In this document: one piece after another, positions 4,701-35,825 of the stretch
How positions within the stretch are numbered: the stretch's first letter is position 1
Layout: every line of letters starts with the position of its first letter
From: Xanthomarina maritima
GTDB taxonomy: Bacteria > Bacteroidota > Bacteroidia > Flavobacteriales > Flavobacteriaceae
Length of the DNA: 64,000 bases
Direction of reading: 5' to 3'
Assembly: GCF_008084905.1 (NCBI RefSeq)
Contig: NZ_VSFC01000052.1
Coordinates: 310,001-374,000 of the forward strand
Notes under the pieces: generated by a model
Databases searched by the model: none
The model's input: only the letters and a program-made list of their open reading frames with translations
Told to the model about the DNA's origin: nothing
Translations under genes and position numbers: made by a program

Positions 4701-6044
4701 ATGAAAAAATATATCTGGATTATAATAATTTTTTTTTCTTTAAATAATCTAGGTTATTCACAAAGTAAATTTGTAATTCAGAACAAAAAAGGCTCTGATA
4801 AAATTCATTTTAAACTCATTAATAATTTAATTATAATTCCTGTTGAAATAAATGGTGTCGAGTTATCATTTCTATTAGATACTGGAGTTAATAAATCTAT
4901 CATTTTCAATTTTTTAAACATTACAGATACACTTCAAATAAAAGATACTGAAACTATTTATCTAAGAGGTCTAGGCGAAGGAGAAGCCATTAAAGCTTTA
5001 AAATCTAAAAATAATATTCTAAAAGTAGGAGATGCTATAAATATAAGCCAAGAACTATATGCAGTATATAACCCAAATTTAAATTTTGCGCCAAGATTAG
5101 GGGCTCCTTTGCATGGTATTATTGGATATGATTTATTTAAAGATTTTGTAGTTGAAGTTAATTATACCACTAAAAAATTAACATTAACAAACCCTAAGGA
5201 TTATATATATGAGAAGTGTAACTCTTGTGAAACTTTAAATATGCAATTTTATAAAAACAAACCTTATATCTATACAAATGTTAAAATAAATGATAAGCAT
5301 ATTCCAGTTAAAATGTTAATAGATTCTGGAGGGAGTGATGCTTTATGGCTATTTGAAGAAGATAGTCTTGGTATTCATCTAGATAACAAATATTTTGAAG
5401 ATTTTTTAGGACATGGTTTAACAGGAAGTGTTTATGGTAAAAGATCCAGAATAGAAGAATTTTCAATAAAAAACTTCACTCTTAAAAATGTGAATGTATC
5501 GTTTCCAGAACCAACTTCTTTAATTTATGTTAAACAACATAAAGAAAGGAATGGAAGTATAGCTGGGAATGTTTTAAAACGATTTAATTTAATTATTGAT
5601 TATCAAAACAGCTCAATTACTTTTGATAAAAATAGGATGTTTTCTGAGCCATTTAATTATAATAAAAGTGGTATAGAATTAGAGCAAGATGGAGTTAGGC
5701 TTGTTAGGCAAAAAGATTATAATTATGCAAATACTGGTGATTTTTTAGGAAGTGAAAGCAATACATCAAAAACAACTGTTGTTTTAAGTACTCAATATAA
5801 GTTAACTTTAAAACCTGCTTATTCAATAGTGGAATTAAGAAAAGACTCTCCAGCAGAAAAAGCAGGTTTGAAAGTTGGAGATTACCTGTTGTCTATAAAT
5901 AATAAATCTACTGATAGATATAGTCTTCAAGAAATTATGCAAATGTTTTATGAGGATAAAGATGAACGAATTAAGATAGTAATAGAAAGGGATGGTATTC
6001 CATTAACTTTTGTTTTTTATTTAGAAGATATTTTTAAACAATAA
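4701..6044 (+). CDS. Secreted retropepsin-like aspartyl protease with PDZ domain
   Basis: 447 residues from the ATG at 4701. An in-frame ATG at 4683 would put six residues before a classical signal peptide (MKKYIWIIIIFFSLNN), so 4701 is preferred. Two aspartyl-protease half-sites are present: LLDTG with Asp60 and LIDSG with Asp208, each followed by hydrophobic segments. A C-terminal PDZ domain (~365-445) carries DSPAEKAGLKVGDYLLSINN. Family knowledge suggests a periplasmic or surface peptidase; having both Asp motifs in one chain suggests an intramolecular active site. It stands alone and converges on the DUF1573 gene. Confidence 0.85.
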   Translation: MKKYIWIIIIFFSLNNLGYSQSKFVIQNKKGSDKIHFKLINNLIIIPVEINGVELSFLLDTGVNKSIIFNFLNITDTLQIKDTETIYLRGLGEGEAIKALKSKNNILKVGDAINISQELYAVYNPNLNFAPRLGAPLHGIIGYDLFKDFVVEVNYTTKKLTLTNPKDYIYEKCNSCETLNMQFYKNKPYIYTNVKINDKHIPVKMLIDSGGSDALWLFEEDSLGIHLDNKYFEDFLGHGLTGSVYGKRSRIEEFSIKNFTLKNVNVSFPEPTSLIYVKQHKERNGSIAGNVLKRFNLIIDYQNSSITFDKNRMFSEPFNYNKSGIELEQDGVRLVRQKDYNYANTGDFLGSESNTSKTTVVLSTQYKLTLKPAYSIVELRKDSPAEKAGLKVGDYLLSINNKSTDRYSLQEIMQMFYEDKDERIKIVIERDGIPLTFVFYLEDIFKQ

Positions 6045-6046
6045 AA

Positions 6047-6072
6047 AAGCCTTAAGAGTTTTCTTAAGGCTT
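6047..6072. terminator. Bidirectional terminator between convergent genes
   Basis: A perfect 11-bp stem (AAGCCTTAAGA at 6047-6057, TCTTAAGGCTT at 6062-6072, loop GTTT) sits 2 bp after the protease stop and before the convergent DUF1573 gene. An A-run lies on one side and an AT-rich tract on the other. Confidence 0.8.
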
Positions 6073-6096
6073 AAATATATTTGTTTAGAAAAATAA

Positions 6097-6522
6097 TTAT
6101 TGTTCCATAACACTTTCGCTCTTTTTCTCAAGAACACTAGTTTTACTAGGGTCAATGACTTCTCCTTTAATTTTTAAAGCTACAGTAGGTGTGTCAGCAT
6201 TAGAAATTACTGTAATTGTCTTTCTAATAGGATTTACTCTATTAGTGTCGTACTTAACTTCAATTTGACCAGTTTCACCTGGTTGGATAGGTCCTTCTGG
6301 TTTTTTAGGAACTGTACAACCACAACTTGAATTTACTTTTGAAATAATTAAAGGTGCATCACCTGTGTTTGTGAATTCAAAAACACGAACACCATCAGCT
6401 CCTTTTTCAATAATACCATAATCTATAGTATCAGTCTTAAATTCAATTTTAGCTACTTTTTCTTGAGCATTTACCGAAAAGCTTAATAATCCGATAAAAA
6501 ATACTACTACTAAATGTTTCAT
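6097..6522 (-). CDS. DUF1573 domain secreted protein
   Basis: 141 residues from the ATG at 6522. The longer frame to 6552 adds ten residues before the signal peptide MKHLVVVFFIGLLSFSVNAQ, so it is not preferred. After cleavage one immunoglobulin-like DUF1573 (ASH/MSP-like) beta domain follows, with typical motifs DYGIIEKGADG, FEFTNTGDAPLIISKV and NSSCGCTVPKKPEGPI. The CGC motif and the P-I-x-PGETG turn are hallmarks of the family in Bacteroidota. Its biochemical role is not established. It is monocistronic. Confidence 0.9.
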   Translation of the reverse strand: MKHLVVVFFIGLLSFSVNAQEKVAKIEFKTDTIDYGIIEKGADGVRVFEFTNTGDAPLIISKVNSSCGCTVPKKPEGPIQPGETGQIEVKYDTNRVNPIRKTITVISNADTPTVALKIKGEVIDPSKTSVLEKKSESVMEQ

Positions 6523-33970: not shown

Positions 33971-34681
33971 TTATTCTCTAATACTCCATATTTCATGAAT
34001 AGGGTCTCCTTTACTAGACAGACCTGAGTGATGCCATTTGCCATCAATTAATTCGTAATTAAATTGCAAACTAAGTCCTGCTTTAGAATCGTCTCTTGAG
34101 AAGAATTCAATGTTTTCAGTGTATTTGCCATCTTTGGTAGTATAGGTACCACCACCAGTTCCCATAAATTGTTTGGTTTCTGCATTATAGGCTATCCATT
34201 GAAATCGCGTGCCAGACAATACTTTCATGGTTTTTCTTGGGCCACTGGTGTCACGCAATTGTTCTTTTCCATCTCTTATTCTACCAGACATTAACCAAGC
34301 TCCTTGAAGTTTACCTGGTTTGCCAGAGTCTATTCTTTTAAATTTTAAATGACTATCAACAATTTCAATGTCGTTATCAGTAATTCGTACTTGATAACTT
34401 ATTTCAGTACCTACAAGCTCAGGAGAGCTAGTATTAAACTCTACCTTTTCTGTCATGGTATCGCCATCTAATTTCCAGCTGCCACCATTGGTATGTATCC
34501 ATTTGCCAGAGCTTGCGTGATAACTACTTAATACCTGATAGCCATCAGCCAAAATAAGTACATTTCTTTGTGGCTCTCCCTGTTCGGAAGTAGTAATAGC
34601 TTCCCAAGCACCTATAAGGTTTTGCGCTTTGATAGTAAAAGATAAAATTGTGCAGAAGAATAAAATAAGATATTTTAACAT
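33971..34681 (-). CDS. Secreted protein with two lipocalin-like repeats (unrecognised family)
   Basis: 236 residues. A signal peptide (MLKYLILFFCTILSFTIKAQ) precedes two similar beta-rich halves, each opening with a Gly-Ala-Trp motif (NLIGAWEAITTSEQGEPQRN and KLQGAWLMSGRIRDGKEQLR). A Gly-rich turn (GGSWKLDGDT, GGGTYTTKDGKY) follows in each. This points to a duplicated lipocalin-like barrel of unknown ligand. The upstream spacer is the repeat-filled region at 34682-35228, which may hold its promoter. Confidence 0.75.
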   Translation of the reverse strand: MLKYLILFFCTILSFTIKAQNLIGAWEAITTSEQGEPQRNVLILADGYQVLSSYHASSGKWIHTNGGSWKLDGDTMTEKVEFNTSSPELVGTEISYQVRITDNDIEIVDSHLKFKRIDSGKPGKLQGAWLMSGRIRDGKEQLRDTSGPRKTMKVLSGTRFQWIAYNAETKQFMGTGGGTYTTKDGKYTENIEFFSRDDSKAGLSLQFNYELIDGKWHHSGLSSKGDPIHEIWSIRE

Positions 34682-34804
34682 GAAATTATTTATTACTGTT
34701 GTTCAATATTTTTGGTGACAACTATGGCTAGCTATGTGTTTTTTAACTCAGTTTAATACTAAAGTAATATATTTTTAGCTTCTTGACACAGGTTTTTTAA
34801 GTAT

Positions 34805-34826
34805 GCTTCGAGAATTCTTCGAGAAC
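34805..34826. repeat. Two copies of an 11-bp unit containing CTTCGAGAA
   Basis: GCTTCGAGAAT and TCTTCGAGAAC repeat with an 11-bp period. The core TTCGAGAA is the reverse complement of TTCTCGAA, which occurs at the start of the next array. Confidence 0.75.
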
Positions 34827-34868
34827 CTCCCCTAAAAACTCCATTTTTAAAACATACAGCAAAGTTTT

Positions 34869-34901
34869 TCTCGAACAAGTCTCGAACAAGTCTCGAACAA
34901 A
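34869..34901. repeat. Three tandem copies of TCTCGAACAAG
   Basis: Eleven-bp units at 34869-34879, 34880-34890 and 34891-34901, the last ending in A rather than G. Confidence 0.9.
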
Positions 34902-34920
34902 ACCCCCTAAAAATGGCCTT

Positions 34921-34980
34921 CGTGTTTCAAATTGTTTCAATCTGTTTCAAATTGTTTCAATCTGTTTCAATTTGTTTCAC
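34921..34980. repeat. Six tandem copies of a 10-bp unit NNTGTTTCAA
   Basis: Six exact 10-bp steps; the first (34921) begins CG, the next four alternate AT and TC, giving two copies of a 20-bp unit, and the last ends in C. T-tracts recur every helical turn, so curved DNA is possible. Confidence 0.9.
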
Positions 34981-35113
34981 AGATGCCTAATTATGATATT
35001 TTTTGCTAATTTTAATATGGCAGAAGTTAAAAGATTGTATAATGAGATATCAGGATTTAGTTAATTATCTGTATAGTATTTTAGGACGAGTCATACTAAA
35101 GAGCTACTGTATA

Positions 35114-35157
35114 GCTTAAGTATGGCTTAAGTATAGATAGTGTATGGATAGTGTATG
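35114..35157. repeat. Two pairs of 11-bp tandem units
   Basis: GCTTAAGTATG and GCTTAAGTATA (35114-35135), then GATAGTGTATG twice (35136-35157): 44 bp in a strict 11-bp frame. Confidence 0.88.
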
Positions 35158-35228
35158 GGAGCAAGCGATTTTTCTTACAAAAGATGAAATCACCTTTCAT
35201 CAGCATGTTTTTATTAAAAAACACCCTC

Positions 35229-35825
35229 TTAAAACACCTTATCTAAAAATGCTCTTATGTTTTCTTGGTTGGACCGAATCAGTTCAGCTTTGGCATTCTC
35301 CTTATCTTGTGGCTTTTTGTCCTGCGAGAGCTTAAATTTCCCTTCCCAATGCGTAATGGTAATTTCGAACATTTTAATGTAATTAAGATTTGCTACCATT
35401 CTAGGGTTATCAGCATCTAAAACATATTTATGGGCTGGTTTTTCCAAAAACTCTGTCATAATAATTAAAGATTGCTTTAAAGCCTCTTTACTTTCAATAG
35501 CTTCTACAGTAGCTTGTAGATGGACTTTAATATAATTCCAGGTAGGTAATTGTGTTGTGGTGTAAATACTTGGTGAGATATAGCATTGTGGCCCTGAGAA
35601 AATCACTGTCAGCTGATTATTGTCTTTTAATAAATTAGCTTGTGGATTATAAATATCTATATGTCCAATAAGCTTTCCATCTTCTTCTCTATAAATTAAA
35701 GGTAGATGTGTAATAAGTGGTTTATTATCTGTTACCGAAATAATAGTAGCAAGTGGATAATTTTTAATAACTTCAATCATATGGAGTTTGTCATTATCTT
35801 GGTGAAGTTTTGGAGGATAGTTCAA
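35229..35825 (-). CDS. PaiB-family FMN-binding regulator-like protein
   Basis: 198 residues. The split-barrel flavin-binding fold has the PaiB-like opening MNYPPKLHQDNDKLHMIEVI, the core SVTDNKPLITHLPLI and GHIDIYNPQ, and the strand motif VIFSGPQCYISPSIY with WNYIKVHLQATVEA. PaiB of Bacillus was named a negative regulator of protease and sporulation genes. Here the name reflects homology only; an FMN-dependent oxidoreductase is also possible. It stands alone. Confidence 0.85.
   Translation of the reverse strand: MNYPPKLHQDNDKLHMIEVIKNYPLATIISVTDNKPLITHLPLIYREEDGKLIGHIDIYNPQANLLKDNNQLTVIFSGPQCYISPSIYTTTQLPTWNYIKVHLQATVEAIESKEALKQSLIIMTEFLEKPAHKYVLDADNPRMVANLNYIKMFEITITHWEGKFKLSQDKKPQDKENAKAELIRSNQENIRAFLDKVF

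Follow-up and report, generated by a model that had tools for sequence, protein, structure and literature searches.

Why should one short intergenic spacer hold several tandem arrays of different sequence, all repeating every 10-11 bp? The question arises in the window analysed here, a stretch of 64,000 nucleotides from a contig of Xanthomarina maritima, in which the arrays lie within a spacer of 547 bp (34682-35228) that has a DUF4488 gene on one side and an FMN_bind_2 (PaiB-like) gene on the other, both on the minus strand. A sequence-only reading of this DNA had listed five unrelated repeat families and had offered two explanations for them, either a site at which short helical-turn duplications arise repeatedly or a protein-binding array selected for one face of the helix. 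We consider both here, together with several other explanations that the locus and its relatives bring into play.

The spacer and its arrays

The arrays in the spacer are real and far above chance. The 547-bp spacer scores 29.5, 21.5 and 34.5 at lags 10, 11 and 20; in 1000 first-order Markov shuffles of the same sequence, the highest score at any lag from 5 to 30 had a median of 8 and never went above 16. Coordinates and periods, checked in the sequence and with TRF, are as first described, but the families are fewer and more closely related: the first two, taken to be unrelated, are reverse-complement kin (TTCGAGA / TCTCGAA) that together make up one inverted array, each supplying an arm, and what was split into "2 + 2" units on the right is a single unbroken array of five. 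These two mergers leave three array classes (A, B and C) in place of five unrelated families (Table 1). What the spacer carries is a dispersed intergenic element, named AB here and present as a solo copy, along with the relic of an insertion sequence (IS) end and the C array, which is of another kind.

Table 1. Features of the spacer and its neighbours in the window
Feature	Position	Strand	Basis or remark
DUF4488 gene	33971..34681	-	Pfam PF14869; spacer lies 5' of this gene
AB element, whole	34792..34979	-	78% identity over 188 bp with G000:C1:28222-28409
A array, arm 1 of inverted pair: 2 x CTTCGAGAA, period 11	34806..34825	+	Sequence; core is the reverse complement of arm 2
AT-rich middle between A arms, with AAAAACTCCATTTTTAAAA	34826..34868	no strand	Sequence; like the middles in other AB copies
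A array, arm 2: TCTCGAACAAG x2.9, period 11 (TTCGAGACTTG on - strand)	34869..34900	-	TRF score 64, 100% matches
Junction with AGGGGGTTTTG-like motif	34901..34922	no strand	Window copy has TG at -32
B array, period 10: TTGAAACANN on - (TGTTTCAA on +)	34923..34979	-	TRF 5.7 copies; score 86 at period 10, 107 at period 20
Possible DUF6266 start-region relic, unproven (ATGGCAGAAGTT)	35017..35028	+	Position only
IS3-type end relic (...TTTTAGGACGAGTCA)	35054..35093	+	88% over ~40 bp with G000:C27:1-41 and C28:1-40
C array: five GTATRG cores, period 11	35109..35158	+	TRF; linkers CTTAA, CTTAA, ATAGT, ATAGT
FMN_bind_2 (PaiB-like) gene	35229..35825	-	Pfam PF04299; spacer lies 3' of this gene

Read on the minus strand, the AB copy of the window runs from the B array through the junction and the forward A array to the AT-rich middle and the inverse A array, and its first TTCGAG begins 33 bp after the start of the last B core (TTG). 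An ATG at 35017 has the place and the orientation of the DUF6266 start in other AB copies. It is a possible relic of such a gene, since the position fits, but the sequence gives no proof, and a protein search found no DUF6266 match in the window's contig. An IS related to the IS-end relic, at C6:1-1692, codes for an rve / IS3 transposase fragment. The stretch 34737-34753 has a 17-bp identity with a repeat found at the ends of contigs C1, C15 and C20 and inside C22 of the same genome (G000), and is probably another dispersed repeat.

Helical-period arrays in other spacers

A periodicity scan was run over 798 kb, or 26% of the genome, made up of contigs C27 and C18 and the window and containing 345 spacers of at least 40 bp (54.5 kb); the shuffled expectation was about one segment per lag for the whole set, and an N-run artefact at C18:185832 was excluded. 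Five segments scored at least 13 at lag 10 or 11, three of them in the window spacer and two in an element at the end of C27 that bears A and C arrays, and the other 343 spacers had no such segment. Generic hot spots of helical-turn duplication were rejected on this result, as scores of this size among the 345 spacers are found solely at A/B/C loci, and the idea that such duplications arise repeatedly finds no support as a general process. Weaker stretches of two to three copies with a period of 10 or 11 do occur, with TRF scores of up to 37 elsewhere in the window and of 40-42 at three AT-rich places in C27. There is also a weaker sign of a local tendency to helical-period arrays near array-bearing loci, where, of 31 further arrays with other sequences, 13 have a period of 10, 11, 20 or 22 bp (12 of 53 in the control), with the limits that three of the 13 are A- or C-type variants (one at L008, two at L004) and that the control set includes the C27 element.

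An ordinary conserved regulatory site between mpl and paiB was likewise rejected. In 37 relatives with both genes (two of them with a 5-bp gap) the mpl-paiB interval has no such array, the maximum scores being 8 at lag 10 and 10 at lag 11 vs 29.5 and 21.5 in the window spacer. None of 85 paiB loci had DUF4488. The sequence-only reading had named two outcomes that would speak against it, the absence of the period elsewhere and the conservation of the arrays between species as a regulatory site. The period does occur elsewhere, at a second A/C locus of the same genome and in other genomes, and at this locus the arrays are not conserved in that way.

At one locus in a congener (G002:C24, L255), 1.5 kb of sequence contains AB, C arrays, a DUF6266 gene that is broken, and arrays of TTCGGGTCTAC and of GTCCGTAGATA. 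It is a second multi-family spacer, with a long 11-bp TTCGGGTCTAC array at 5180-5340 and an 11-bp GTCCGTAGATA array at 5591-5635. Near paiB in a Lacinutrix genome there are two 10-bp TTCGCAGAGA arrays (L077:5930-5998 and 6057-6114), which are unlike B in sequence.

A dispersed element of marine flavobacteria

AB consists of inverted 11-bp A arrays (core TTCGAG/CTCGAA) and a 10-bp B array (core TTGA) about 33 bp away, and its parts follow in the order 10-bp array, junction with GGGGTTTTG at its end, (TTCGAGACTTG)n array of 11-bp units, AT-rich middle and inverse 11-bp array. In the window's own genome (3.04 Mb, 62 contigs), blastn found relatives of the left part of the spacer at C1:28222, C20:4137, C6:104489, C27:164 and C6:135474, and matches to the C array or the IS end, which make up its right part, at contig ends of C6, C14, C27, C28 and C29 and inside C50. 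As a blastn query, the C1 copy was matched in only 8 of 149 genomes, which include its own and, as a weak match without arrays, G045, and AB is therefore accessory. The A pattern TTCGRGNNTTGTTCGRG gave 71 matches in 30 of 397 Flavobacteriaceae genomes (own included) vs 10 matches of the reversed control; outside the family there were 13 matches in 12 of 354 genomes vs 9 in the control, which is not clearly above chance (controls counted by eye in both cases).

The similarity of B regions is 0.77 for 11 pairs from one genome and 0.54 for 220 pairs from different genomes, a difference that none of 2000 label permutations reached, although the pairs are not independent. In two genera (G000:C20:4137 and G031:C2:2257577), a solo AB copy lies directly 3' of the same gene pair, named by eye as ECF sigma/anti-sigma-like. 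Literature searches over titles and the starts of abstracts, with few subscription papers or preprints covered, gave no description of AB among the matches listed. A scattered element of marine flavobacteria, with no description found in the literature searched, mostly accounts for the cluster in the window. An origin in phages or plasmids was considered and rejected, as the exact AB pattern is unmatched in viral contigs, in which one distant DUF6266 was found, and the C1 copy has no blastn match in plasmids.

Phase of the 10-bp lattice to the 11-bp array

The two arrays of AB stand in a near-fixed phase. In an ungapped alignment on the first A unit, the on-lattice positions (-32, -42 ... -122) have a mean of 11.6 TG each vs 1.46 off the lattice; this count kept 30 of 52 arrays, 22 being dropped by a rule on flanks, and includes several genomes repeatedly. 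Because some of these loci came from a query that included B, the phase was retested with the A pattern alone on 29 loci, one per genome and with the own genome left out. Upstream identity exceeded that of shuffles at lag 10 (z=16), lag 20 (z=15.3) and lag 30 (z=11.9), and at lag 11 there was no excess (z=-2.2). Of the 29 loci, 8 have the TG at -32, 6 at -31 and 3 at -33, which places the junction at 33 bp +/- 1.

At least four of the seven TG lattice steps are present at A arrays in 21 genomes from 16 genera (own included), a level reached by 0.18% of 20000 random non-coding points. This survey has 77 rows of A arrays, some of which are one element met in two loci, and its other rows are A arrays without the lattice or chance matches to the pattern. 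Unit cores vary by species (TGAC, TGGC, TGTC, TGCA) and the lattice is kept, so that over the 21 genomes the same architecture recurs with different unit sequences.

Core, linker and turnover

Copies within one genome differ little in the core of the B unit and freely in the linker. The core is mismatched at 2 of 45 T, 0 of 45 G and 2 of 42 A positions (4 of 132 for TGA in total) and at 7 of 42 C positions, whereas the six linker positions have 83 mismatches in 252, in a comparison of five same-genome pairs that were aligned without gaps, the G000, G031, G199 and G001 pairs being left out. Slippage alone would make the linkers uniform too, and uniform cores with diverse linkers hence point to selection on core and pitch; unequal exchange among units that share a core would also produce like cores. 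Turnover of the B array is fast. Two G031 copies (88% identity over 633 bp) differ in 36 of 130 columns within B, unit number included, and in 40 of 503 columns outside it, and so 36 of their 76 differences fall in the B array.

This turnover is also what neutral minisatellites would display, that is, arrays produced by slippage or unequal exchange and spread by chance or hitch-hiking, in which the period is simply the length of the founding unit. The extra arrays of other sequence at some array-bearing loci agree with such an origin as well. However, pitches of 10 and 11 bp and a junction of ~33 bp persist over 16 genera despite different units, the 343 other spacers are without a comparably strong array, and the core and linker of a neutral minisatellite are expected to evolve alike, which the mismatch counts above contradict, cores being kept and linkers free between same-genome copies. 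We regard a purely neutral history as rather improbable.

Genes linked to AB

AB lies directly upstream of a DUF6266 gene (Pfam PF19781) at 12 loci, and at 10 of these a small HTH_17 gene is convergent to DUF6266. The 12 include a locus in G002 with a broken DUF6266 gene, where no HTH_17 gene was found, a locus in G220 with a short flank and no HTH_17 match, and one in G009 with a degraded lattice (3 of 7 steps); in G046 the HTH_17 open frame is short and probably damaged. The search profile was itself built from four of the ten HTH_17 proteins, which leaves six independent matches, each with E=1.2e-6 or better. With the same profile, no match was found in 733 kb of the own genome, which served as a control, or within 3 kb of the four DUF6266 genes at which an A array stands alone, with no B lattice (L247, L256, L364, L375).

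In its sequence, the HTH_17 protein resembles an excisionase. Pfam HTH_17 is matched by all three proteins tested and the PHROG 66 excisionase family by two of two, while TIGR01764 (excisionase) gives scores of 31.6, 25.8 and 23.9 vs a cut-off of 28.8, one of three lying above it. For two of three proteins the best NCBIfam E-value belongs to the defence-system protein MAD1, far under the MAD1 cut-off. A sequence search of the PDB with the HTH_17 profile returned no Xis or BldC chain, and DUF6266 matched nothing among solved structures better than E=0.41. Among the ORFs within 3.5 kb of 15 loci, five of which are master loci (DUF6266/HTH_17), no integrase was noticed by eye. No paper naming the DUF6266 family was among the matches listed in the literature searched.

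The window copy is solo, with no adjacent HTH_17 gene. At least two AB loci were seen in seven genomes, and exactly one copy is DUF6266-linked in six of them (G000, G001, G046, G199, G220, G310); the seventh, G031, has three AB copies and none that is DUF6266-linked. By eye, short 11-bp tandems like CAAGTCCGTAC-CAAGTCCGAA can be seen ~25-45 bp ahead of the start codon in many DUF6266 genes that lack AB (L221, L224, L225, L227, L229-L232 and L234), and these tandems are perhaps related to the A array.

The inverted arrays as a possible hairpin

A single linked copy among several in six of the seven multi-copy genomes recalls a REPIN-like, non-autonomous mobile element, in which the inverted A arrays would form the hairpin, DUF6266/HTH_17 the master and the solo copies the progeny. 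The likeness of same-genome copies is in keeping with this, as are the 37 mpl-paiB intervals of relatives that have no arrays and the folding of the hairpin, with z below -2 in 7 of 10 folds, and REPIN/RAYT, as presented in the part of the paper covered, offers a precedent (PMC3116915). Against such mobility stand the three G031 copies without a DUF6266 link, one of which brings along host sequence (the end of an anti-sigma gene) in the manner of a segmental duplication. Moreover, DUF6266 and HTH_17 are not known transposases, neither clear ends nor a target duplication was found, and covariation is seen in 1 of 12 pairs of the hairpin. We consider this origin unlikely.

The inverted arrays could also act in RNA, by folding into a hairpin within the leader of DUF6266 or by serving as a terminator or attenuator. 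The 7 of 10 single-strand folds that beat shuffles would suit an RNA element, including that of the plus strand of the window (z=-3.8), but L243 and L299 fold little or no better than shuffles. The covariation term is -0.19 kcal/mol, with one compensatory pair among 12 in 13 sequences, and no terminator-like site was found in 34601-35300. Rfam gave no family at gathering score and one sub-threshold match, to the Fst antitoxin, outside the spacer. An RNA structure was rejected as weak on these points, and we give an RNA element very little chance.

A probable phased protein-binding platform

The copies share an inverted 11-bp array (TTCGAG) and, joined to it at ~33 bp (+/-1), a 10-bp array with TTGAC/TTGAA or a species variant of these. 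In each unit a short core is constrained and the linker is nearly free, which implies that length and core are selected and that the rest drifts or is homogenised. Judged by these patterns, AB is likely to be a selected protein-binding platform. The sequence-only reading had put forward a protein-binding array, and the phased lattice across genera, the constrained cores and the free linkers favour that part of it; its "one face of the helix" can hold only locally. Pitches of 10 and 11 bp drift against the 10.5 bp of a DNA turn over many units. As an array with either pitch leaves one face within ten units, protein-protein contacts, and not the facing of the DNA alone, would set the pitch.

For the binding protein itself, HTH_17 is a tentative candidate put forward by analogy, and the odds are somewhat against it. 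At a master locus, this Xis/BldC-like protein would bind the 10-bp array head-to-tail with one subunit per unit, and the bound protein may bend or coat the DNA and thereby control the DUF6266 promoter; solo AB copies such as that of the window would be additional binding sites spread through the genome. What weighs against HTH_17 as the reader is the pitch, which is 9 bp for BldC, 10 in B and 11 in A; a single protein would need to accommodate both AB pitches unless a second protein is involved. We put the probability of the whole explanation, a dispersed AB that acts as a phased nucleoprotein platform, is read by HTH_17 and has its solo copies as further sites, at roughly one half.

Several known systems bear comparison with this platform, each of them as described in the part of the source covered. 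The sites of recombination directionality factors (RDFs) consist of direct repeats spaced by one helix turn, on which the proteins bind head-to-tail (PMC7498355), and RdfS is a filament former (PMC11963761). Like the operators of lambda Xis, phage 186 Apl and Cox, AB has tandem direct repeats at about one helix turn (periods 10 and 11); these operators are bound cooperatively and head-to-tail by small proteins with a relaxed sequence preference (PMC7498355), and AB has an excisionase-like HTH_17 gene at many of its DUF6266-bearing copies. Unlike them, AB often has more units, combines two pitches in near-fixed phase and is dispersed in intergenic regions, and the AB loci read by eye showed neither an integrase nor an att site. 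The operators of BldC in Streptomyces have direct repeats that vary in number, as do those of AB, with a consensus of AATTXXXX(C), 9 bp per subunit and one MerR-like subunit per repeat (PMC5859096). The consensus is, as it happens, fitted by AATTGTTTC of the window's B array, whereas the AB pitch is 10 or 11, several of the species variants are without AATT, and the phylum is another.

Two dispersed elements come nearest to AB. BrickBuilt, a MITE/minisatellite of Porphyromonas gingivalis (Bacteroidetes), is also dispersed and intergenic with tandem units inside, and both have conserved and variable parts of the unit, leader/tail segments and a variable number of units (PMC4596501). BrickBuilt has a single 23-nt unit, is reported from one species and has small inverted-repeat ends, whereas AB has units of 10 and 11 bp, its inverted arrays are internal, and no end repeats are evident by eye; the BrickBuilt text covered has no DUF6266/HTH_17 linkage (PMC4596501). 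Like REPIN / RAYT (PMC3116915), AB has dispersed inverted doublets with a linked gene locus, but its linked genes are DUF6266 and HTH_17 and not a tyrosine transposase, and in place of single palindromes it has tandem arrays of helical period in few copies per genome. To the extent that these sources cover them, AB is without defining features of both BrickBuilt and REPINs (PMC4596501; PMC3116915).

A further-reaching proposal would make AB a new class of dispersed element, in which the DUF6266/HTH_17 master locus keeps and spreads the solo arrays, a filament-forming HTH_17 reads 10 and 11 bp at a 33-bp phase, and unit sequences change in step among the copies of a genome. We hold this to be doubtful; if true, the class would parallel, in bacteria, the fast-evolving satellites and the proteins that bind them. 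If the platform reading is right, AB arrays are a natural set of tracks, spread across the family, on which a helical nucleoprotein filament would form. Their unit lengths and the phase of their two pitches would be set and their linkers free, which would allow direct tests of how filament proteins read DNA. DUF6266 would gain a genomic context and a candidate regulator, and genome annotation in Flavobacteriaceae would have one more type of dispersed repeat to record.

C arrays and IS3-type ends

Triplets of GTATRG-N5, the unit of the C array, number 94 (overlapping registers counted) in 23 of 299 genomes of the family, own included, vs 7 in the control (by eye). Of 32 C arrays, 3 of them cut by a contig end, 9 have an IS-end-like motif no more than 120 bp away; control sequence of 504 kb contains the motif 31 times. 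These nine arrays, and the IS relic that sits between B and C in the window, raise the question of whether period arrays are insertion targets of IS3-family elements, with the cluster in the spacer resulting from repeated IS activity. IS elements directed to dispersed repeats are on record and provide a precedent, in the part of the source covered (PMC1525189). However, the remaining 23 of the 32 C arrays have no such motif nearby and the AB architecture is independent of IS, and we find IS targeting very unlikely as the explanation. In G209, an array like TTCACCCGNGG, with a period of 11/22 bp, is present both by an A element (L295:1200-1251) and by a C element (L343:1430-1484).
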